A stretch of 61,053 nt of DNA. Origin: Candidatus Cloacimonadota bacterium (GTDB lineage Bacteria > Cloacimonadota > Cloacimonadia > Cloacimonadales > Cloacimonadaceae). The DNA is taken from NCBI GenBank assembly GCA_018433885.1, contig JAHDQK010000022.1, forward strand, positions 1 through 61,053, given 5' to 3'. The notes under the pieces are model-generated. The model was not told the origin of the DNA and made no database searches. It saw only the letters and a program-made list of their open reading frames with translations. Every line of letters begins with the position of its first letter. The first letter of the stretch is position 1. Positions 1,452 through 38,155 of the stretch are shown one piece after another. A program made the translations under genes and the position numbers.

Positions 1452-2678
1452 ATGAAACCAGAGATCGTAAGTCCCCGTCGTGAGAAGCTTCTGAGCTCTC
1501 TGCAGGATATGGATGCGGTGATCCTGTTTGCCGCCAGAGAAGCCAAACTGGAGAAATTTAGCCAGGAAAACAACTTTTTGTATCTTACCGGATTAGAAAC
1601 TCCTAATGCTATATATTTTGGGATTAAAAGCAACCATTCCAACGTAGAATACCTCTTTATTCAACGTTCCGATCCCGAACGTGAAGTATGGGAGGGTAAG
1701 AAAACGACCCCGGAAGAAGCCAAAGCCCAGAGTGGCATCACAAACGTGGTGTTTCTGGATGAATTCGACGGTATAATCAGTAATTGGTGCCCTGCCATCA
1801 ACAGGATATACTCGAATATTGGACATCAAGCTATCAATGCACCGCTATCCTATGCGATGTTTCGTTTAAAACCGATAAAAGAGCGCTATCCGCAGATCGC
1901 CATCCAGTGCATCACCGAGAAGATATCTCCCCTGCGCAAGATTAAAAGCGAGTGGGAGATCATGCAGCTTCAGAAAGCTATCGATGTAACAGGAAAAGGC
2001 ATCCTGGATATCTGGGAGAACGCGCAGGCTGGAATGATGGAATATGAACTGGAAGCGATGCTTTTTTACCGAATCCAGAGAAGCGGATTGAAACATTGGG
2101 GTTTTGCGCCCATCATCGCTTCCGGAATCAACGCAGCTACCTTGCACTATGAGAAGAACGACTGTCAGATAGGCACCAATGATCTCGTATTGATGGATGT
2201 TGGGGCGTCCTACATGAACTATTCCGCAGACATCAGCCGCACCTTCCCGATTAGCGGAGTCTTCAGTGAACGGCAAAAGGATGTTTATTCCGCGGTGCTC
2301 AGAGTGCAAAAGGAAATCATCAGCATGATCCACCCGGGAGTGTCTCTTATGGACTTGCAGAAGAGGACTCGGGAGTTGATCGCACAGGAGCTAATCGAAC
2401 TAAAGCTGATAACCGAGGCATCCGAGGTAGGCAAGTACTATATGCACGGGGTGAGTCATTTTCTGGGGATGGATACCCACGATGTGGGTGGACGCACAGC
2501 CATCCTGGAACCTGGCAATGTGATAACTGTAGAGCCCGGCATCTATATTCCGGAAGAACGCATTGGCGTGCGGATCGAGGACGATGTGCTGGTAACCGAA
2601 GAAGGTTATTGCGTGCTGAGCCAGAACATCCCCAAAGAGATATCAGAGATCGAAGAAATCCTCAAGGCACGTCAATGA
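1452..2678 (+). CDS. pepP: Xaa-Pro aminopeptidase (M24B family)
   Basis: 408 residues; removes N-terminal residues that precede proline, in the cytosol. An AMP_N-type N-terminal domain (about 1-165) is followed by the pita-bread M24 domain. The metal ligands are visible in order: first Asp in VLMDVGASYMNYSADISR (both Asp), then the HGVSHFLGMDTHDVGG histidine, EPGIYI glutamate and RIEDDVLV glutamate. The frame is open from an ATG at 1440, but GGAG at 1442-1445 lies inside those extra codons and sits 6 bases before ATG 1452, so 1452 (MKPEIV) is preferred. Its TGA overlaps the coaD ATG as ATGA, so the two are co-translated. Confidence 0.93.
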   Translation: MKPEIVSPRREKLLSSLQDMDAVILFAAREAKLEKFSQENNFLYLTGLETPNAIYFGIKSNHSNVEYLFIQRSDPEREVWEGKKTTPEEAKAQSGITNVVFLDEFDGIISNWCPAINRIYSNIGHQAINAPLSYAMFRLKPIKERYPQIAIQCITEKISPLRKIKSEWEIMQLQKAIDVTGKGILDIWENAQAGMMEYELEAMLFYRIQRSGLKHWGFAPIIASGINAATLHYEKNDCQIGTNDLVLMDVGASYMNYSADISRTFPISGVFSERQKDVYSAVLRVQKEIISMIHPGVSLMDLQKRTRELIAQELIELKLITEASEVGKYYMHGVSHFLGMDTHDVGGRTAILEPGNVITVEPGIYIPEERIGVRIEDDVLVTEEGYCVLSQNIPKEISEIEEILKARQ

Positions 2679-3148
2679 AGGCGATCTATCCCGGAACCTT
2701 TGATCCCATTACCTTCGGGCATCTGAACATCCTGGAAAAAGCATCCCGGATGTTCAGCGAAGTGATCTTGGCAGTGGCGGATTATACTGCCAAACAGAAC
2801 TACTTCAATCTGGAAGAGCGGGTACGCTTGTGCAAGGAATGCAGCAGCCATTTACCGAATGTGCAAGTGATGAGTTTTTCCGGATTGGTGGTGGATTTTG
2901 CCAAAGAGCAGGAAAGCACGGTCATGATCCGCGGAATGCGGGCGGTTTCTGATTTTGAGTATGAACTGTCGCTCGCGCTCACAAATACCAAACTGAATCC
3001 TGGAATTGAGACTGTGTTTTTGGTGCCCAGCTTGCGCTATATGTATCTCTCATCGTCGATGATCCGCCAATTGGCAGAACTCAAGGCGGATCTCACGGAT
3101 TTTGTACCGCCCCAGGTAGCCATGTCACTAAAGAATAAGTTTCACTAG
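2675..3148 (+). CDS. coaD: phosphopantetheine adenylyltransferase
   Basis: 157 residues, the normal size. Catalyses the penultimate step of coenzyme A synthesis (4-phosphopantetheine + ATP to dephospho-CoA). The nucleotidyltransferase signature GTFDPITFGHLNI begins at residue 6, RGMRAVSDFEYE follows mid-protein, and the C-terminal SSSMIRQLAE corresponds to the ISSTxxR motif. The frame is open further upstream, but those codons lie inside pepP and encode nothing family-like. The start at 2675 gives the expected MKAIYPGTFDP and a 4-base ATGA overlap with pepP. Confidence 0.96.
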   Translation: MKAIYPGTFDPITFGHLNILEKASRMFSEVILAVADYTAKQNYFNLEERVRLCKECSSHLPNVQVMSFSGLVVDFAKEQESTVMIRGMRAVSDFEYELSLALTNTKLNPGIETVFLVPSLRYMYLSSSMIRQLAELKADLTDFVPPQVAMSLKNKFH

Positions 3149-3161
3149 GAATCGGAACCAC

Positions 3162-4535
3162 ATGGCTAAGAAACAAACAGACACAGAACAGATCAGCATA
3201 TCAGAACGGAAATTGCCCCATGACATCAATGCGGAAGCCGCGGTTCTTTCCGCTATGATCATCGATTCCGATGTGATCAGCAAAGGTATCGAGAAGCTTC
3301 AAGAATCCTATTTCTTCAGGATGAGCCACCGCTTGATCTTTCGGAACATTTGCGAACTCTTCAACGATGGCATCGAGGTGGATATCCTAACCTTGATCAA
3401 TAGGTTGGAACGCAACAATCAATTGGAAAAAACCGGAGGAAAAGCCTATCTCAGCGAGATCGCGGATATCGTGGTATCCAGCGCAAACTTCGATTATCAC
3501 TTAAACATTGTAATAGAACAAGCGCTACTGAGGCACCTGATCGTAGCGTGCAACGGTATTATAGAATCCTGTTACAGCTCCACAGCACCGGTTAAAACGG
3601 TAGTGGACGAAGCGGAACAAGCCATATTTTCCATTGCTGAAATGCCGCATCATCAGGGGTTTATCAGAATCGATCAGATATCCGGAGAGGTGCTGCACAA
3701 TATCGATCAGATCGCATCCACCAAAACCCCAGTGACGGGCATCGGGAGCGGATTTGGAGATCTGGACCGCTTAACTGGCGGTTTTCGCCCCGGCCAATTC
3801 ATTATCATCGCAGCACGTCCGGCGATGGGTAAGACATCCCTGGCTTTGAACATCGCAACTCACGCATCGGTAAACCTCAAAAAACGGGTCGGGATCTTCA
3901 CCATGGAAATGGCAGCGGATGAAGTGATCATGAGGATGTTTTCTTCCGCCTCGGAAGTTAATATGGATAGCATGCTAAAAGGTTATGGCATGAACGAAGA
4001 AAAGCTGACCCGCATCATGCAAGCCTCCGAAGTATTGAGCACGAAACACATTTACATAGATGAATCCGGAACCAACACTCCCTTGGATATCCGCGCCAAG
4101 ACCAGACGTCTGGCAGCGGAATTGGGAGGCTTGGATCTTATCCTGATCGATTATCTGCAACTGATGGGGTTATCCAAAGAGCGGGATAATCGCCAACAGG
4201 AGATTTCTGAGATATCGCGAGCATTGAAAGTTCTGGCAAAGGACATGAAGATTCCGGTGATAGCGCTTTCTCAGCTAAACCGCATGCTGGAAAATCGAGA
4301 AGATAAAAGACCCCGCTTGGCAGACCTTCGGGAATCTGGCGCTATCGAACAGGACGCTGACCTCGTGATGTTCATCTATCGGGACGAATATTACTACCCG
4401 GAGAAGACAGAGAAGCCCGGAATCGCGGAGATCATCATCGGCAAAAACAGGCATGGCTCGACCGGTTCTGTGGATCTTGGTTTCGATAAAGAGTTTACCC
4501 TGTTCAGATCCTTGGATTTAAGCGAAGACCGTTGA
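3162..4535 (+). CDS. dnaB: replicative DNA helicase DnaB
   Basis: 457 residues. Hexameric helicase that unwinds DNA at the replication fork. The N-terminal helical domain (DINAEAAVLSAMIID, residues about 20-120) is followed by the RecA-like ATPase domain. Walker A is ARPAMGKTS (about 219-227), Walker B is LILIDYLQLM, then SQLNR and the DLRESGAIEQDAD motif with an arginine finger region (GKNRHG). No intein is present. The gene follows coaD by 13 bases and is followed after one base by the permease gene, so it belongs to the same transcript. Confidence 0.97.
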   Translation: MAKKQTDTEQISISERKLPHDINAEAAVLSAMIIDSDVISKGIEKLQESYFFRMSHRLIFRNICELFNDGIEVDILTLINRLERNNQLEKTGGKAYLSEIADIVVSSANFDYHLNIVIEQALLRHLIVACNGIIESCYSSTAPVKTVVDEAEQAIFSIAEMPHHQGFIRIDQISGEVLHNIDQIASTKTPVTGIGSGFGDLDRLTGGFRPGQFIIIAARPAMGKTSLALNIATHASVNLKKRVGIFTMEMAADEVIMRMFSSASEVNMDSMLKGYGMNEEKLTRIMQASEVLSTKHIYIDESGTNTPLDIRAKTRRLAAELGGLDLILIDYLQLMGLSKERDNRQQEISEISRALKVLAKDMKIPVIALSQLNRMLENREDKRPRLADLRESGAIEQDADLVMFIYRDEYYYPEKTEKPGIAEIIIGKNRHGSTGSVDLGFDKEFTLFRSLDLSEDR

Positions 4536-31973: not shown

Positions 31974-32347
31974 TTATCTCAGAAAGCTCTTTGCTCTCAT
32001 ACCCACCTGTTTCGCCCACTTGGAGGCAAGCATGCCATTGGCAGCCCGTTCCCAGTCTCCGGCTTTGATAAACGCCAGGGTGTTCTTGAACTCCAGGAGT
32101 CCCTTGAAGCTAGAGTACTCACCAAGTGGGAGGAGATATTTCAGCGAAACTGATATCTGACTTGATTCCAGATTGATCATAATCTGTGTAAATCCGTTCG
32201 ATCTGCGTCATCTGCGTGCTATAAAAGAACGAGATTGCGGCCGATACCAATGGTCAGCTTACCAGCAGTACAGCGGTATGGCTTAAGCCTCAGACCTTCG
32301 TGTCTGACCAGTTGTTCTTTGATGCGTTCCAGTAGTGTGGTTTCCAT
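31974..32347 (-). pseudogene. relic of a phage T4-type lysozyme (endolysin)
   Basis: The N-terminal piece starts at ATG 32347 behind AAAGGAG and reads METTLLERIKEQLVRHEGLR then KPYRCTAGKLTIGIGRNL before a TAG at 32221-32219. This is the front of a T4-lysozyme-like (GH24-type) enzyme, including the catalytic Glu of HEGLR. The C-terminal piece, open at 32180-31974, reads LAFIKAGDWERAANGMLASK then WAKQVGMRAK, the usual helical C-terminal lobe. About 70 residues between them are missing or scrambled, and a one-base slip after MRAK hides the family ending (E-L-S-E-I-M-R). The gene is dead by several lesions and marks past phage DNA here. Confidence 0.8.
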
Positions 32348-32648
32348 CGAATCTCCTTTCGAGTAGTATTGGATACTGTCTCTGGAGCAAGGAAGCCACT
32401 ACCCTATATTAACACAAATACGGATGCATAAGGATGCGACAGAACTTGGTAATTGTTTTTTTATTTGCTTTTTCTCGGCTTTGGGTTACTTTAGTTTTAA
32501 TAAATTGATGAGGTCTGCCATGTGGAACTGGATTTAGTTAAATGACACCCAGAGTTTTGTTTGAAAATATTAGGTTTTAGACGATTATTGGGGTATGAGT
32601 GTACCCTTATGGTATTAAAAAAATAGAACAACGTACATTGGAGTGATT
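32348..32648. other. intergenic gap with a 12-base exact repeat
   Basis: No gene seen. AGTATTGGATAC at 32365-32376 is identical to 31853-31864, which includes the -10 of the lipoprotein promoter; it lies just upstream of the lysozyme relic. The copy may be a shared promoter piece or a remnant of recombination. The rest is AT-rich. Confidence 0.4.
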
Positions 32649-34214
32649 ATGCTGAAAATAGTAATTTTTTTGGTCTTTTGCAGTTTCGCAGGGTCCGTTT
32701 TTTCGCAAACTCCAATGCAAATATTGGCATCTATTGAATCTCCCTTTGTTAGTGATACAAATAGCTGGGGTGGGAGTATTAAAGGCAATGGAGATATAAA
32801 TGGCGATGGATACAATGATATTGTGTTGGTTGGCCAGCCTCTAGGAAGTGGAAATGGACGTAGAGATGTATATATCTACATGGGAGGAAGCACTTTAAAC
32901 TCAGTCCCCGATTACATCATCACTGATCCTTCATATCCGGGACCTTATAAAGCTTTTGGTTCAGCAATAGCCTATAATGGTGATCTGAATGGAGATGGAT
33001 ATTGCGATTTAGTAATTTCCGAACCTCATTATGGTTACGATAATTGGGGCAGAGTTCTTATTTACTTCGGGGGACCAAGCTTTGATACAATTCCAGACTT
33101 AATCTTTGATGGATTGGAATATGGGATCATACCCTATGGACTTGAGTTTGGCTCTAACATAGACATCTCCGGAGACTTTAACGGAGACGGATATTATGAT
33201 TTGGTGATATCATCCCAACATTCAAATTTAAGCCATTATGGGCAGGTGAATATTTTCTTCGGAGGACCAGACATAGACAGTACTTGTGATTGGTTTAATT
33301 ATGGAGTGATGGAGGAAGATTTTGGGATTTCCCTTTCAGTGGGTGATATAAATGGTGACGGTTTTAGCGATCTTGCGGTTTGTTCTCTGAACTCTACTCA
33401 GATCAACAATCAAAGGATAAAGCTCTTTTTTGGGGGGGCTGACTTTGATAATATTTGTGATGCAACCTACGGAGAATTTGACCCTTATGAAGTTCTAACA
33501 CTACTCATGGAAGAAGACGTAAATAATGATTCTTATGATGATTTAGCTATCTTTCGCGGTAATGAATTTTATATATGTTGGGGATCTGATACTGCTGTCC
33601 TGGAGTTTGAACTATGGCACACTGCGCCTCAAACGAATATTTGGTCAGCATATTATGCAAGATTTGAGAACAGCAGATACTTGTGCTATGGAACCCCGCA
33701 ACTCGAGACTTTCAATTTCTACCGATGGGATAACGCAGATGGATTGGTATTGGATTATGCAATTAACGAAAATTACAACCCTTATGCAGCAAAACAGGTG
33801 TCCTACTATTTAGGTGATGTAAATGGGGACGGACACAGCGAGATTCTACTATCCAACCGCACAAGTAGTCCGATCTTATTTAAAGTATTTACTACTCAGT
33901 ATAGTAGCAATTCATCGGATGACATCGTCTTAACATCTCCTTTGCATCTAACCGCTTATCCAAATCCCTTTGCTCAAGGTGTTTCGTTGACTTATGAATT
34001 GAAGGAGCCAGGAATGATCGGGCTTTCTGTTTTCAATATAAAGGGGCAATTAGTTGCTAGGCTTTATGAAGGCTACAAGAGGGCAGGGCAAAACTCTGTT
34101 AACTGGAATGGAATGGATAATTTGGGGAGAAAACTACCTTCAGGAATCTATCTCGTTAAGTTAAGATTAGGTGATAAGTTTATATTATGTAAAAAAGTAA
34201 CGCTGTGTTACTAA
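32649..34214 (+). CDS. secreted FG-GAP/integrin-like beta-propeller protein with sorting domain
   Basis: 521 residues. ATG 32649 has GGAG 5 bases upstream; a GTG two codons earlier lies inside that site and is rejected. After a signal peptide (to about residue 20) come about six FG-GAP-type repeats with calcium-binding D-x-N-G-D-G-x-x-D loops (DINGDGYNDIVLVG, DLNGDGYCDLVIS, DFNGDGYYDLVIS, DINGDGFSDLAV, a degenerate DVNNDSYDDLAI, and DVNGDGHSEILLS), forming a propeller. The C-terminal 85 residues are a sorting domain (AYPNPFAQ, FNIKGQ, WNGMDNLGRKLPSGIY, CKKVTL). The DNA is clearly more AT-rich than the flanking housekeeping genes. Probably a surface adhesin-type or structural protein; no enzyme domain is seen. 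Confidence 0.85.
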   Translation: MLKIVIFLVFCSFAGSVFSQTPMQILASIESPFVSDTNSWGGSIKGNGDINGDGYNDIVLVGQPLGSGNGRRDVYIYMGGSTLNSVPDYIITDPSYPGPYKAFGSAIAYNGDLNGDGYCDLVISEPHYGYDNWGRVLIYFGGPSFDTIPDLIFDGLEYGIIPYGLEFGSNIDISGDFNGDGYYDLVISSQHSNLSHYGQVNIFFGGPDIDSTCDWFNYGVMEEDFGISLSVGDINGDGFSDLAVCSLNSTQINNQRIKLFFGGADFDNICDATYGEFDPYEVLTLLMEEDVNNDSYDDLAIFRGNEFYICWGSDTAVLEFELWHTAPQTNIWSAYYARFENSRYLCYGTPQLETFNFYRWDNADGLVLDYAINENYNPYAAKQVSYYLGDVNGDGHSEILLSNRTSSPILFKVFTTQYSSNSSDDIVLTSPLHLTAYPNPFAQGVSLTYELKEPGMIGLSVFNIKGQLVARLYEGYKRAGQNSVNWNGMDNLGRKLPSGIYLVKLRLGDKFILCKKVTLCY

Positions 34215-34230: not shown

Positions 34231-34733
34231 ATGAGACGAGTTATTGTTGTTTAGCTATCTTGACATTAGTTGCCAAAGCGATAGCGGTAAGTAGCAGTGT
34301 AAGTTTTGGCATGTCAGATCTTCAATTCTCAACCGGAGAAAGAGGGTATGACTCAGTTAGGATGAATGGTTTAGAAAACATTAGAGTAGTAGGGGCTCCT
34401 CAGGAGCCAGTAAAGCTGTTGAACTTTATAATACCCACTGGGATGGATATTGATAACATATCAATTGTTTCCAATACTCAAACACTTGCAAATACGTATA
34501 ACTTAATCCCAGTTCAACCACTTATCCCCACATCAGAGGATTGGCAACCGGGGCCATTCATAGAACCTGATAGCACTTTCTACACCATGTTGGTTTACCC
34601 ACCGACATCAGTTGAAGTGATGAATCATGGTTATTTCGATGGAAATGCACGAATAGCAACTATCGCAGTATATCCTCTCCAATATATGCCACAATCTCAG
34701 CAGGTAATATTGACTAACCCTGGATTGATATAA
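34231..34733 (+). pseudogene. gingipain-type (C25) protease gene reduced to signal peptide and propeptide
   Basis: A strong AAGGAGGAAGG site leads to ATG 34231, giving MRRVIVV and then a TAG at 34252-34254. A one-base slip at about 34247-34252 would continue into LAILTLVAKAIAVSSSVSFG, completing a signal peptide. The open part (34260-34733) reads like a C25 propeptide: VKLLNFIIPTGMDIDNISIV, LIPVQPLIPTSEDW, FYTMLVYPPTSVEVM and IATIAVYPLQYMPQSQQVIL. The gene then ends; the caspase-like catalytic domain and sorting tail are absent. Its last 20 bases overlap the convergent ABC exporter, so the 3' part was probably replaced when that block arrived. Confidence 0.7.
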
Positions 34734-36360
34734 CCTCATCCGCAATCTGGCGTGTTTCATTTTTGTGCGATATCATGATGATGAACATATCCTTGGGTAA
34801 GGATCTGATCGTATTATGTATCATGGCTTCACTGATGGAGTCAATGTTCGAAGTGGGTTCATCAAGGATCATCACACGAGGGTTTTTCAGCAACGCGCGA
34901 GCTATGGCGATACGTTGTTTTTGCCCTGTCGAAAGGTTGATGCCTTTAGCGCCCAGTAATGTCCGATATTTATCCGGAAGCTTGTTAACAAATTCAAAAA
35001 CATTAGCCAGTTCTGCTACTCTGCACACATCTTCTTCTGTTGCACTAGGATTGCCCAGCAGGATATTTTCGTAGATGCTATCATCGATCATGAGCGGCTC
35101 TTGCTCAACATAGGATGATTGCTTTCTCATGCTGTATATATGTTCTTTATTAAGCTCTATCCCATCAATGACTATCTGCCCTTTCTGGGGAAGGTAGATC
35201 CCCATCAACAACATAGCCAGCGTGGTTTTGCCGGTTCCGGAATTGCCGCTTACCAAGTAGATAAAACCTGGTTTGATAGTGTAGCTGAAATCCTGTATAA
35301 TTGGGCTTTCCATTTGATAGGCAAATGAAACACCGCGAAACTCAATCTCCCTGGCGATGGATATCCCGGCACCGTTATGCCTTAAGCACTCGGATTCCAG
35401 GTTCAAATACTCATGCAGCCGCATAAACAGCGGTACGTTCTTGTGAAAGTTCACCAAATTCATTACCAATCGGTTAATAGGGCTGTTAATCAATTGAAAT
35501 AGGGCAAGATATGCAAACAGCCCGCCGATCGTGAATTTACCGGTCATGATGGCATATCCTCCCCCAACATATATCAGGGACCTGCAAAACTCCTGGATGG
35601 AAAGCGTATAAGTATACTGTCTGTAAGTTTTTAAAACGAATTTAACATAAACTTCATAATACTGCTTGAAAGAACTGAACAAACGGGTCGCAAACCTGTA
35701 TTGCAGATCGTAGATCTTCACCAGAAAGGTGGCTGAGACAGACTCCTGGAGCCTACTGTTATGTATGGTATAATGTTCCAGTATTTGTGCTTGAAGTTTT
35801 GCCAGGATAGCACCCCAGCGTTGAGATATGAGGGCGTTGATAAACAACAGCAATACGACTGCAAAAGTCAGGTAGACATTCAACATCGCGATAAAAACGG
35901 CTCCAACCGCTATCATGACAACCTCGTTGACTATCCTGACGGCGGAGCTCATAAAAGTTTCCAATACCATTACGGTATCGTTGTTAATCCGGTTGAATAT
36001 ATATGAGCCAGATTGATGGTAATACTCCTGAAGGGGCATGTTGTGCACGCGTTTCACCAAATCCTTCCGCATGGTAATCATCACCAGGAAATTAAGCCTG
36101 GCTAGTATGAACTCCTGATAATAGCTGAGTATGGTAGTCAATACGATAAGTATGAAGTACAAAGCCGCAGCCGCCACCAATAATCCCGTTTTGTTGGATG
36201 GGATAGCTTTATCAATTATATAGCGGCTTATATAGGGCATTCCCATCGACACGACTGACACAGCCAGCATAATACAGAAAGCTAAGAGGATCTTTTTTCT
36301 GTAGCGATAGAAATACTTTCTTAACAAACCATAGATCAACCCCAACTCATCTTTCTTCAT
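34714..36360 (-). CDS. ABC exporter (fused membrane and ATPase domains), probable peptide exporter
   Basis: 548 residues from ATG 36360, with GGGGG a few bases upstream. The frame is open to 36447, but that part lies inside the preceding SPASM reading frame. A type-I exporter domain with six helices (about 20-290) is followed by the ATPase: Walker A SGNSGTGKTTLAML (about 355-370), Q-loop YVEQEP, signature LSTGQKQRIAIA, Walker B RVMILDEPTS and switch His in MISHKNE. There is no N-terminal C39 peptidase domain, so any leader removal must be done by another protein. Its start overlaps the radical SAM remnant by 14 bases, and the same strand carries the RRE-like and Cys-peptide genes, so RiPP export is the likely original role. 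Confidence 0.85.
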   Translation of the reverse strand: MKKDELGLIYGLLRKYFYRYRKKILLAFCIMLAVSVVSMGMPYISRYIIDKAIPSNKTGLLVAAAALYFILIVLTTILSYYQEFILARLNFLVMITMRKDLVKRVHNMPLQEYYHQSGSYIFNRINNDTVMVLETFMSSAVRIVNEVVMIAVGAVFIAMLNVYLTFAVVLLLFINALISQRWGAILAKLQAQILEHYTIHNSRLQESVSATFLVKIYDLQYRFATRLFSSFKQYYEVYVKFVLKTYRQYTYTLSIQEFCRSLIYVGGGYAIMTGKFTIGGLFAYLALFQLINSPINRLVMNLVNFHKNVPLFMRLHEYLNLESECLRHNGAGISIAREIEFRGVSFAYQMESPIIQDFSYTIKPGFIYLVSGNSGTGKTTLAMLLMGIYLPQKGQIVIDGIELNKEHIYSMRKQSSYVEQEPLMIDDSIYENILLGNPSATEEDVCRVAELANVFEFVNKLPDKYRTLLGAKGINLSTGQKQRIAIARALLKNPRVMILDEPTSNIDSISEAMIHNTIRSLPKDMFIIMISHKNETRQIADEVISIQG

Positions 36361-36625
36361 ATGCCCCCGCTTGATAGTGAAGCTGTTCTTCCCTGGCACG
36401 GTCTGCTTTGAGGCATGTTCCCTCATATAGCGAAACAAGGCTGCCATTGTATATCATATTATAAGCCAGGCACCTGACACAATACTCCGAAGAACCGCAG
36501 GTAACGCATATGTCGAAGACATGGCCACTATTCACGGTTCTTATGTAATCCAGTTCGTCATTCTTATTCCATATCTCAGTAATCCGCCTATGATGGAGAT
36601 TCCGTATGGGATTCAATAAAACCAA
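36347..36625 (-). pseudogene. SPASM-domain remnant of a radical SAM peptide maturase
   Basis: The open frame reads N-L-H-H-R-R-I-T-E-I-W-N and then a cysteine pattern C40-x2-C43-x5-C49-x2-C52-x18-C71 (ICVTCGSSEYCVRCLAYN). It ends in KADRAREEQLHY. This is how the auxiliary-cluster (SPASM) C-terminus of RiPP radical SAM enzymes looks, including the -IW- element before the first Cys. The SAM-binding CxxxCxxC core, about 250-300 residues that should precede it, is absent: only 28 bases separate it from the RRE-like frame. The frame opens with TTG and no ribosome binding site. It overlaps the exporter start by 14 bases. Confidence 0.7.
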
Positions 36626-36652
36626 TCTCTATAAGGAAATGGATGAAATGCT

Positions 36653-36835
36653 TCATGGCAGCGCCATGTTCCATGGATTGATAATGATCAGGGCACGATC
36701 CAGGCTGGTCTCCAATATCCGGTCCCTAAGATCGCGAAGAAGCTTATAGCCATTTTCGGCCATGTATGTTTTTTTGCCGTTGGTTATAACCAAATAGTCA
36801 TACAACCTATAGAACGTATAAGATGGATTGAACAT
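36653..36835 (-). CDS. small protein resembling a PqqD-like RiPP recognition element (RRE), probably truncated
   Basis: 60 residues from ATG 36835 with GGAG 5 bases upstream. The visible part, SYTFYRLYDYLVITNGKKTY then MAENGYKLLRDL, matches the strand-strand-helix pattern of PqqD/RRE domains. After about residue 50 the frame goes out of register: an overlapping frame (from about 36668) continues with MEHGAAMKHFIHFLIEIGFI, which looks like the missing last helix (L-x-x-x-G-F-I). One slip therefore seems to have split the domain. It was either a free-standing RRE or the N-terminus of the radical SAM enzyme whose stub follows. Assignment is by pattern and context only. Confidence 0.5.
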   Translation of the reverse strand: MFNPSYTFYRLYDYLVITNGKKTYMAENGYKLLRDLRDRILETSLDRALIIINPWNMALP

Positions 36836-36873
36836 ATTTTCTCCTGATAATGGGTTGGAAGGCTGAGGTGTCG

Positions 36874-37017
36874 TTACTTAGGATCTAGCGGGCAATTCAC
36901 CAGATTCATGGGTTTGGCGCAGTCTCCGGTTGTAGTGCCATCGCAGTCTGGAAGTGTCTTTAGGCCTTTTGGATCTTCGGGTTCTATGGTTACTTCGAAT
37001 ATTAGGATGTTATCCAT
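36874..37017 (-). CDS. 47-residue three-cysteine peptide, candidate RiPP precursor
   Basis: ATG 37017 has an excellent AAAAAAGGAG site (GGAG 37028-37025, 7-base spacing). The product begins MDNILIFEVTIEPEDPKGLK, an acidic leader-like half without a signal peptide. It ends in a Cys/Thr/Pro/Gly-rich half with Cys at 25, 33 and 42 (PDCDGTTTGDCAKPMN). This layout suits sactipeptide or ranthipeptide precursors, whose cysteines are thioether-linked by radical SAM/SPASM enzymes. The RRE-like gene starts 38 bases downstream, then the SPASM remnant and exporter follow on the same strand. I do not recognise the peptide itself. Confidence 0.6.
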   Translation of the reverse strand: MDNILIFEVTIEPEDPKGLKTLPDCDGTTTGDCAKPMNLVNCPLDPK

Positions 37018-37283
37018 ATTTATTCTCCTTTTTTGTGGATTCGCCTTCCCACTCCTTTTTTATGTATTTTTTCTTTGACATAGCGTTACTATATGGGGTC
37101 TGGATATCCCAGTTACAAATTGCGGTGCTAGGCGCTATTGTGATACCACCTATAACCGTTTGACAGGCAGCAACTATGGCCGCAATCTTGTTCCGCGAAT
37201 AAACGAATTTACCATTCAACTATTATCATTTCTCTTGCGATTTAGCTAGTAAGTTTTATGAGTTCGTAACTGCATTACCGAGT
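37018..37283. other. gap upstream of the Cys-peptide gene; weak open frames only
   Basis: A minus-strand frame (37219-37010) with a hydrophobic stretch IAAIVAACQTVIGGITIA and two Cys runs into the start of the Cys-peptide gene. Its only upstream start is a TTG directly after an in-frame stop and it lacks a ribosome binding site, so it is not called. It could be the tail of a second precursor that lost its front. Confidence 0.35.
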
Positions 37284-37342
37284 TGAGTCCCAGATGCTGG
37301 TGTAAAATCCAGCTCATTGTTTCTCAGATCATTTGAGGACAT
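37256..37342 (-). CDS. 28-residue open frame starting inside the dispersed repeat
   Basis: ATG 37342 follows an ACGAGGA site with about 6 bases spacing. The peptide is hydrophilic (begins MSSNDLRNNELDFTPASG). The paralogous position in the right-edge repeat gives a 19-residue frame that begins MFSNNLRNNELEFTPTFG. Differences between the two copies are not concentrated at third codon positions, so coding is doubtful. It may be a leader peptide or the front of a lost precursor gene. Confidence 0.3.
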   Translation of the reverse strand: MSSNDLRNNELDFTPASGTQLGNAVTNS

Positions 37343-37397
37343 TCTTATAATCCTCGTTTCAACACTCTATACTAAACCTTGTAACCAATTGCATTAT
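37284..37397 (-). repeat. copy 1 of a roughly 110-base dispersed repeat
   Basis: About 110 bases align with 60917-61028 at roughly 75-80 percent identity by eye, in the same orientation. The best parts are TCATTGTTTCTCAG, the ACGAGGA-ATG region and ACCAATTGCATT. Both copies lie upstream of minus-strand genes and contain a ribosome binding site plus ATG, so the unit may be a mobile promoter/leader segment. Confidence 0.7.
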
Positions 37398-37470
37398 TTT
37401 GCTTCTTGTTTCTGTGTCAAGCGCTATTTTTTTAATTGGCATTCCCTCATTTATTAATCGATGTTGATAA

Positions 37471-37802
37471 GGTCATTATGAATCTCCCGGATGCACTGGT
37501 ATCGAGGAAGAGATCAACTCCTCAATCAGTGGCCTCCAGTTAACAAACTACACCAATCCCTTCAATCCAGAGACTACAATCAGATATGGCGTCCCAGTTG
37601 ATGGCAATGTAACACTAATAATCTATAACGCCAGGGGCCAACCGATCAACACTCTGGTGAATGAGTACCAAAACATTGGCAATTATCAAGTGGTCTGGAC
37701 TGGGAAGGACTCGAGTGGCAATCGTGCCGCTTCCGGTTTGTATTTCACCCGTTAGTGTCTGGAGGCAAATCCATTAGCAAGAAAATGTTGCTAATGAAGT
37801 AG
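37471..37802 (+). pseudogene. C-terminal fragment of a sorting-domain secreted protein with a one-base frameshift
   Basis: The open frame lacks any start and reads TNYTNPFNPETTIRYGVP, then NVTLIIYNARGQPINTLV, WTGKDSSGNRAASGLYF and a TAG at 37753-37755. Shifting by one base after Arg (CGT at 37750-37752) restores L-V-S-G-G-K-S-I-S-K-K-M-L-L-M-K followed by a stop at 37800-37802, the canonical FlgD/T9SS-type ending. The rest of the protein is missing upstream. It is the tail of a deleted secreted protein. Confidence 0.8.
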
Positions 37803-37834
37803 TATCAATGAGATTGTCTAATTTCAATAGGTAA

Positions 37835-38155
37835 TTACACAGAGAGAATGGTCATCGTCCTACACTTCCAATGAAATGGCGGGAACGGTGTATGCGCTCC
37901 AGAGACACCTACCGGGTTCATCTCTGAGTCGTATTCGATCTGATCATCTTTGATCCAGGGTGCCAGTGCTTTGATGTAGTCTCTGGCATCATCCAGGCTG
38001 TTGGACTTGGTATCAAGAGCCATCAGGTTATCCATCACTTCCAGGGCATCGTTTAGAGGATAGATCTTATCTTGGGCAGCCAACGCCCGGCAGATATCAC
38101 AGGTGCGTTCATCCGGTAGCATCCTTGCTGTCCATTTGTTTCGTATTATGCGGGA
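37835..38155 (-). pseudogene. C-terminal fragment of a phage head morphogenesis protein (Mu gpF/SPP1 gp7-like)
   Basis: The frame reads W-T-A-R then MLPDERTCDICRALAAQDK, and ends near HTPFPPFHWKCRTM. The D-E-R-T-C-x-x-C and P-P-F-H-x-x-C-R motifs are the metal-binding-type end of phage minor head proteins. The family-like W-T-A-R lies before the only ATG (38122), so that ATG is internal and the fragment is open back to a TGA at 38158-38156. About two thirds of the normal protein is gone. It is a second phage trace besides the lysozyme relic. Confidence 0.7.

Follow-up and report, generated by a model that had tools for sequence, protein, structure and literature searches.

What is the run of four frames on one strand of this DNA, does it still work, and why does it lie between phage genes? 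In the window, by which we mean the whole analyzed stretch of 61,053 nucleotides, ORFs read from the sequence give, in order on the minus strand, a 47-codon ORF, a 60-aa frame, a five-Cys frame and an ABC exporter. A preliminary description had taken them for a decayed RiPP cassette comprising a precursor gene, a separate RRE-like gene, a SPASM stub and the exporter. All four frames are present as described, and their homology to a cassette in another genome goes beyond chance. We consider it likely that the locus is what remains of a RiPP cassette, now defunct, which a prophage carried in a cargo slot.

An intact relative and a broken maturase gene

Across 125 genomes of the phylum, the SPASM frame had a single strong match outside its own genome, in a member of the same genus (G008; Candidatus Cloacimonadota bacterium, contig JASKKR010000037.1). 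The matched protein is a 446-aa enzyme with about 45–46% identity to the frame (E 6e-18). At this locus (L047), a 55-aa precursor with three Cys residues (777-944) is followed by the enzyme (1029-2369), the exporter (2356-4026) and finally a 709-aa protein whose start resembles a signal peptide. The preliminary description had proposed looking in related genomes for the same order with a full radical SAM gene, and G008 shows it, with precursor, enzyme and exporter all intact. No intact enzyme or exporter of the window type was found in viral contigs, and among genome contigs that of G008 alone came close. With one intact close relative found in 125 phylum genomes, the family of such peptides is so far very small.

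The G008 enzyme carries the radical SAM motif CxxxCxxC as CNFDCVFC and matches the Pfam models Radical_SAM (1e-19) and SPASM PF13186 (1e-8). Its nearest solved peptide maturase is SkfB (6efn). In length and domain order, with an N-terminal region of ~120 aa followed by the radical SAM and SPASM parts, it resembles maturases of the SkfB/StsB/AlbA type that possess an N-terminal leader-binding domain; a small Cys-containing precursor and an exporter also occur in G008, and the likeness extends to sequence matches with SkfB 6efn and StsB. It departs from this type in that its NCBIfam scores lie far below the family cut-offs, the precursor matches no family and the RRE is only putative, and in the window the copy is broken. 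Ranthipeptide systems such as freyrasin/PapB likewise pair a radical SAM/SPASM enzyme with a precursor that contains Cys; however, the precursor here has three Cys residues only and lacks CX3D repeats, and the weak PapB score of the G008 enzyme is exceeded by those of other models. In sactipeptides, a thioether connects Cys to an alpha carbon, whereas in ranthipeptides Cys is bound to another carbon.

Compared with the G008 enzyme, the window retains colinear pieces of a single radical SAM/SPASM maturase gene (36347..36850, minus strand): an N-terminal region (~36850-36612) and a SPASM end, with the core between them missing. Residues 1-23 and 70-91 are matched in different frames, and residues 361-425 (36607-36413) at 46% identity. 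When frameshifts were allowed, 36850-36612 aligned to G008 residues 1-84 with a score of 55, as opposed to 32 +/- 5.5 for shuffled sequences; none of 150 shuffles did as well, but the best reached 54, hence the significance is only moderate. The first frame of this N-terminal, possibly RRE, part is the 60-aa frame (36653..36835, minus strand). The five-Cys SPASM part (36347..36607 in a frame open from 36625, minus strand) gave weak NCBIfam matches, mostly to radical SAM/SPASM models. Judged by where the N-terminal match ends and the SPASM match starts, the core was lost at approximately 36591..36612 (minus strand), taking with it ~residues 90-360. On the evidence of the alignments, the gene is thus frameshifted near 36680 and has lost ~270 residues by deletion. 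The size agrees with the 250–300 residues claimed previously; the junction lies nearer 36591-36612 than in the interval 36625-36670 given for it.

The colinearity of the pieces and the frameshift-aware alignment indicate that the RRE-like frame and the SPASM stub of the preliminary description are two ends of one gene. The decayed cassette that it proposed therefore stands as a remnant of precursor, radical SAM/SPASM enzyme and exporter with the core missing. A separate RRE gene was rejected as a candidate, the 60-aa frame aligning as the N-terminus of the enzyme, and the PqqD/RRE identity assigned to that frame found no support in Pfam, where no PqqD/RRE model recognizes the N-terminal region of the enzyme. 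By analogy with known maturases, this region may nevertheless act as an RRE. A single-sequence structure prediction of the G008 enzyme had a mean pLDDT of 32. In Pfam and NCBIfam searches, the three small frames of the window gave no match above cut-off, and Pfam by itself made no SPASM call on the stub. The CxxxCxxC core seen in the G008 enzyme is absent from the window cassette, which marks the latter as a remnant and not a working member of the radical SAM/SPASM RiPP loci. With the enzyme gene frameshifted and its catalytic core lost, the cassette's enzyme is no longer able to produce the window peptide; the precursor and exporter frames still appear whole.

Precursor, exporter and a second junction

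The precursor ORF (36874..37017, minus strand) encodes 47 aa with Cys at residues 25, 33 and 42 and is preceded by the ribosome binding site AAGGAG (37025..37030, minus strand), of which a near-identical version, AAAGGAGAATAAA, lies ahead of the G008 precursor. Both peptides contain three Cys residues, and their position and ribosome binding site region match. In a gapless comparison from Met to the first Cys (residue 25), the two leaders share six identities, equaled by 18 of 20,000 shuffles, or by 186 of 20,000 with the Cys omitted. The gapped comparison over the whole length was weaker (61 of 2000 shuffles equal). Taken together, the sequence evidence for homology of the precursors is good but not final. 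A search in 60 relatives yielded no homolog of the precursor, and in Pfam and NCBIfam the window peptide matched no family.

The exporter (34714..36360, minus strand; most likely start 36360) is a 548-aa protein with ABC_membrane and ABC_tran domains in Pfam and intact Walker A, signature and Walker B motifs. It shares 46% identity with its G008 counterpart, and in both genomes the exporter frame overlaps that of the enzyme. PDB comparison identified the PCAT1 type as the closest bacterial transporters. The match to the PCAT1-type bacteriocin transporter 4ry2 covers nearly the full length but begins only at residue 168 of 4ry2, so that the earlier assignment of an exporter without a C39 domain is upheld. 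The part absent is presumably the N-terminal C39 protease of the PCAT1 type. Two further exporters were noted in other genomes. One (L048 7428-9101, G021:C35), 66% identical to that of G008, is an orphan with neither enzyme nor precursor adjoining, perhaps another decayed cassette. The other (L050 2384-6343, G042:C123), 33% identical to that of the window, is located ~2 kb downstream of the end of a SPASM-like gene on the same strand at a contig edge.

The precursor and exporter genes bear on what the enzyme would have modified. In NCBIfam, the G008 enzyme scored best with the models for heme b synthase, WgkB and MoaA. These scores, which all fall far short of cut-off, could point to an enzyme that makes a cofactor-type product or modifies a larger protein, with the small Cys ORF not being its substrate. 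We find this very unlikely: in both genomes a Cys ORF with a good ribosome binding site and a conserved leader directly precedes the enzyme, the overlapping exporter is related to peptide transporters, and StsB and SkfB are also among the matches of the G008 enzyme. For a RiPP cassette in its intact form, the SkfB, StsB and PapB systems suggest by analogy that the N-terminal domain of the radical SAM/SPASM enzyme would bind a short precursor whose leader is hydrophobic. With SAM and iron-sulfur clusters, the enzyme would then join core Cys residues to other residues, and the cross-linked product would leave through the ABC exporter without a C39 protease.

At its C-terminus, the window exporter is 8-10 residues shorter than its relatives, and its end abuts a truncated C25 peptidase gene (34711..34716). 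DNA homology to the cargo of another prophage locus, L133, runs through the neighboring FG-GAP gene and the start of the C25 peptidase gene and ends at 34711. This end point and the short exporter together argue for a second deletion that joined the exporter end to the peptidase gene. The enzyme frameshift, this second deletion and the prophage-cargo setting had been overlooked in the preliminary description.

The genome is a draft of 91 contigs, and one might ask whether misjoined ends or a collapsed region in the contig hide a cassette that is intact in the true genome. Such an artefact is very improbable in our assessment, because the enzyme gene has both a frameshift and a deletion, with the second junction 1.9 kb off. 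The missing core was found nowhere else in the genome, which is rated 99.87% complete; the sole matches there are radical SAM proteins at 27-32% identity over part of the query. Furthermore, the flanking cargo and lysozyme gene are decayed too, as expected for an old prophage relic. We keep to the reading of a decayed cassette.

Phage borders and the cargo slot

The cassette remnant is bordered by a broken phage lysozyme gene (31974..32347, minus strand) on one side and by the end of a phage minor head (gp7/Mu F-like) gene (37841..38122, minus strand) on the other. Between them also lies earlier prophage cargo. An FG-GAP protein with a type IX secretion tail (32643..34214, plus strand), recognized by Pfam, is related to L133 cargo at 58% protein and, in pieces, ~80% DNA identity. 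It is followed by the N-terminal remnant of a C25-type peptidase (34260..34711, plus strand; Propeptide_C25; 79% DNA identity to L133). Beside the head gene, what is left of a further gene for type IX-secreted cargo (37423..37849, plus strand) shares 92% DNA identity with the corresponding position of viral contig L191, where the counterpart is also a pseudogene. As a side observation, a 120-bp stretch at 37282-37400 recurs at 72-79% identity just ahead of genes for cargo or secreted proteins in L176 and L164, and also near the slot border in L139 of the window's own genome; it is perhaps a promoter region.

Head gene and lysozyme gene border cassettes alike in the window, in G008 and in a third genome, G010. 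The cassettes of the window and G008 share the strand of the phage genes, unlike most slot cargo. Their head-gene flanks have 92% DNA identity over 107 bases, compared with 46% identity for the exporters, which suggests that the two genomes probably acquired related cassettes separately instead of inheriting one insertion.

The slot between the gp7 head gene and lysozyme varies in content across prophages of the bacterial family (L126-L141) and 57 IMG/VR loci (L167-L223). In 54 of the 57 viral loci, the head gene comes directly after terminase. The space from head gene to lysozyme measures 3.9-9.9 kb where both ends are visible, and ~90% of slot coding in the viral loci is on the strand opposite to the phage genes. 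For a census, we considered viral slots with at least 5 kb and assigned their content by similarity to a fixed query set, with overlapping categories; counts are for this reason lower bounds. Among the 42 readable slots, 26 had defense genes, 10 had C25/FG-GAP genes and three (L195, L217 and L218) had radical SAM genes resembling peptide maturases. PADLOC profiles of example slots included Gabija with type I R-M, type I R-M, type III R-M, type II methylases and type IIG R-M, while copies of the slot in the window's own genome held a Dnd-like set (L138, G000:C67) and BREX (L139, G000:C88). RND efflux was also observed among the cargo (L126-L141, L167-L223).

These data allow an assessment of whether a chromosomal RiPP locus came to lie near prophage debris by chance, without having been phage cargo. 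The window prophage is only a relic, and the G008 contig breaks off within the head-gene flank, both of which leave room for such a coincidence. Against it, RiPP cassettes are flanked by this pair of phage genes in three genomes, and the viral contigs L195, L217 and L218 have such cassettes between the same genes with terminase adjoining. Chance proximity thus seems highly improbable to us, and we retain prophage cargo as the explanation.

Other RiPP-like cassettes and their possible role

Apart from the window/G008 type, several other RiPP-like cassettes occupy the slot or lie near it; the maturase names given here for G010, L195, L218 and G072 are best matches below curated cut-offs. The G010 slot (L051 605-8206, G010:C76) encodes a sigma-like protein, a small secreted protein, a TIGR04463-like maturase, a 63-aa precursor with eight Cys residues, a 732-aa protein related to the G008 709-aa protein, and an exporter. 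Viral contig L217 (10963-18158) follows the same plan, with a 71% identical sigma-like protein and a 64-aa Cys-rich precursor; its radical SAM gene was recognized from its motif and neighbors, without a family model. The L195 slot combines a TIGR04463-like maturase with a 50-aa Cys-rich candidate precursor. In the viral slot of L218 (8589-15757), two CcpM-like radical SAM maturases, one encoded on each strand, are accompanied by several unnamed small genes, which may encode their substrates. A geopeptide-like maturase, a 39-aa candidate precursor with two Cys residues, ABC-2 transporter genes and a protein of the 709-aa family are present in G072 (L158 1822-8419, G072:C3) with a lysozyme relic adjoining. 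G010 has one more cassette type elsewhere, with no phage border within the stretch read.

The 709-aa family adjoins radical SAM cassettes in G008, G010 (twice), G072 and L217. It was tried as a cassette marker and rejected as not specific, being found in 86 of the 125 phylum genomes. At E 1e-8, the G008 gene had no match in the genome of the window.

Several known systems resemble parts of this arrangement. The antiviral hotspots of P2/P4 phages (PMC9122126) are likewise small variable loci between two conserved phage genes that accommodate many unrelated defense systems. The slot described here differs in belonging to another phage family, in Cloacimonadota, in its position between minor head gene and lysozyme, in its larger cargo of 3.9-9.9 kb and in holding surface peptidases and RiPP cassettes; bacteriocins are not mentioned in the main text of that study. 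Lanthipeptide clusters have been reported close to restriction-modification genes (PMC12715929), but as a statistical association within 40 kb, whereas here peptide and defense cassettes alternate in one phage slot. A prophage that carries genes for a secreted modified peptide to the benefit of the lysogen is exemplified by the sublancin cassette on SPbeta (PMC6391423). Sublancin differs as a glycocin from a Gram-positive host and is not a radical SAM peptide. To our knowledge, its slot is not shared with defense systems. Any benefit to a Cloacimonadota lysogen, whether from a weapon that kills rivals, a signal or defense, is conjecture and draws on the parallels with SPbeta sublancin and the phage antiviral hotspots (PMC6391423, PMC9122126).

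The window cassette takes its place among radical SAM RiPP loci with a precursor that has no name yet, and the new element is the link between RiPP cassettes and the phage slot. In the open-access literature, as far as its incomplete coverage goes, we found no paper on RiPPs in Cloacimonadota and none, by title, on the slot between head gene and lysozyme. More broadly, and at somewhat less than an even chance, we suggest that a widespread family of Cloacimonadota phages uses one slot whose content alternates between anti-phage systems, surface peptidases and radical SAM RiPP cassettes of several unrelated kinds, such that peptides, including at least one new precursor family of the window/G008 type, are a standard prophage benefit. 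The window itself is a pseudogene locus, yet it leads to intact, testable cassettes in G008, G010 and viral contig L217, and the slot provides a ready list of defense systems and peptide cassettes in Cloacimonadota. The slot cassettes widen the range of prophage-borne modified peptides beyond Gram-positive sublancin, in the same slot as antiviral systems. If the broader reading is true, secreted modified peptides directed against rival bacteria or rival phages would be a standard benefit of prophages in this mostly uncultured phylum.
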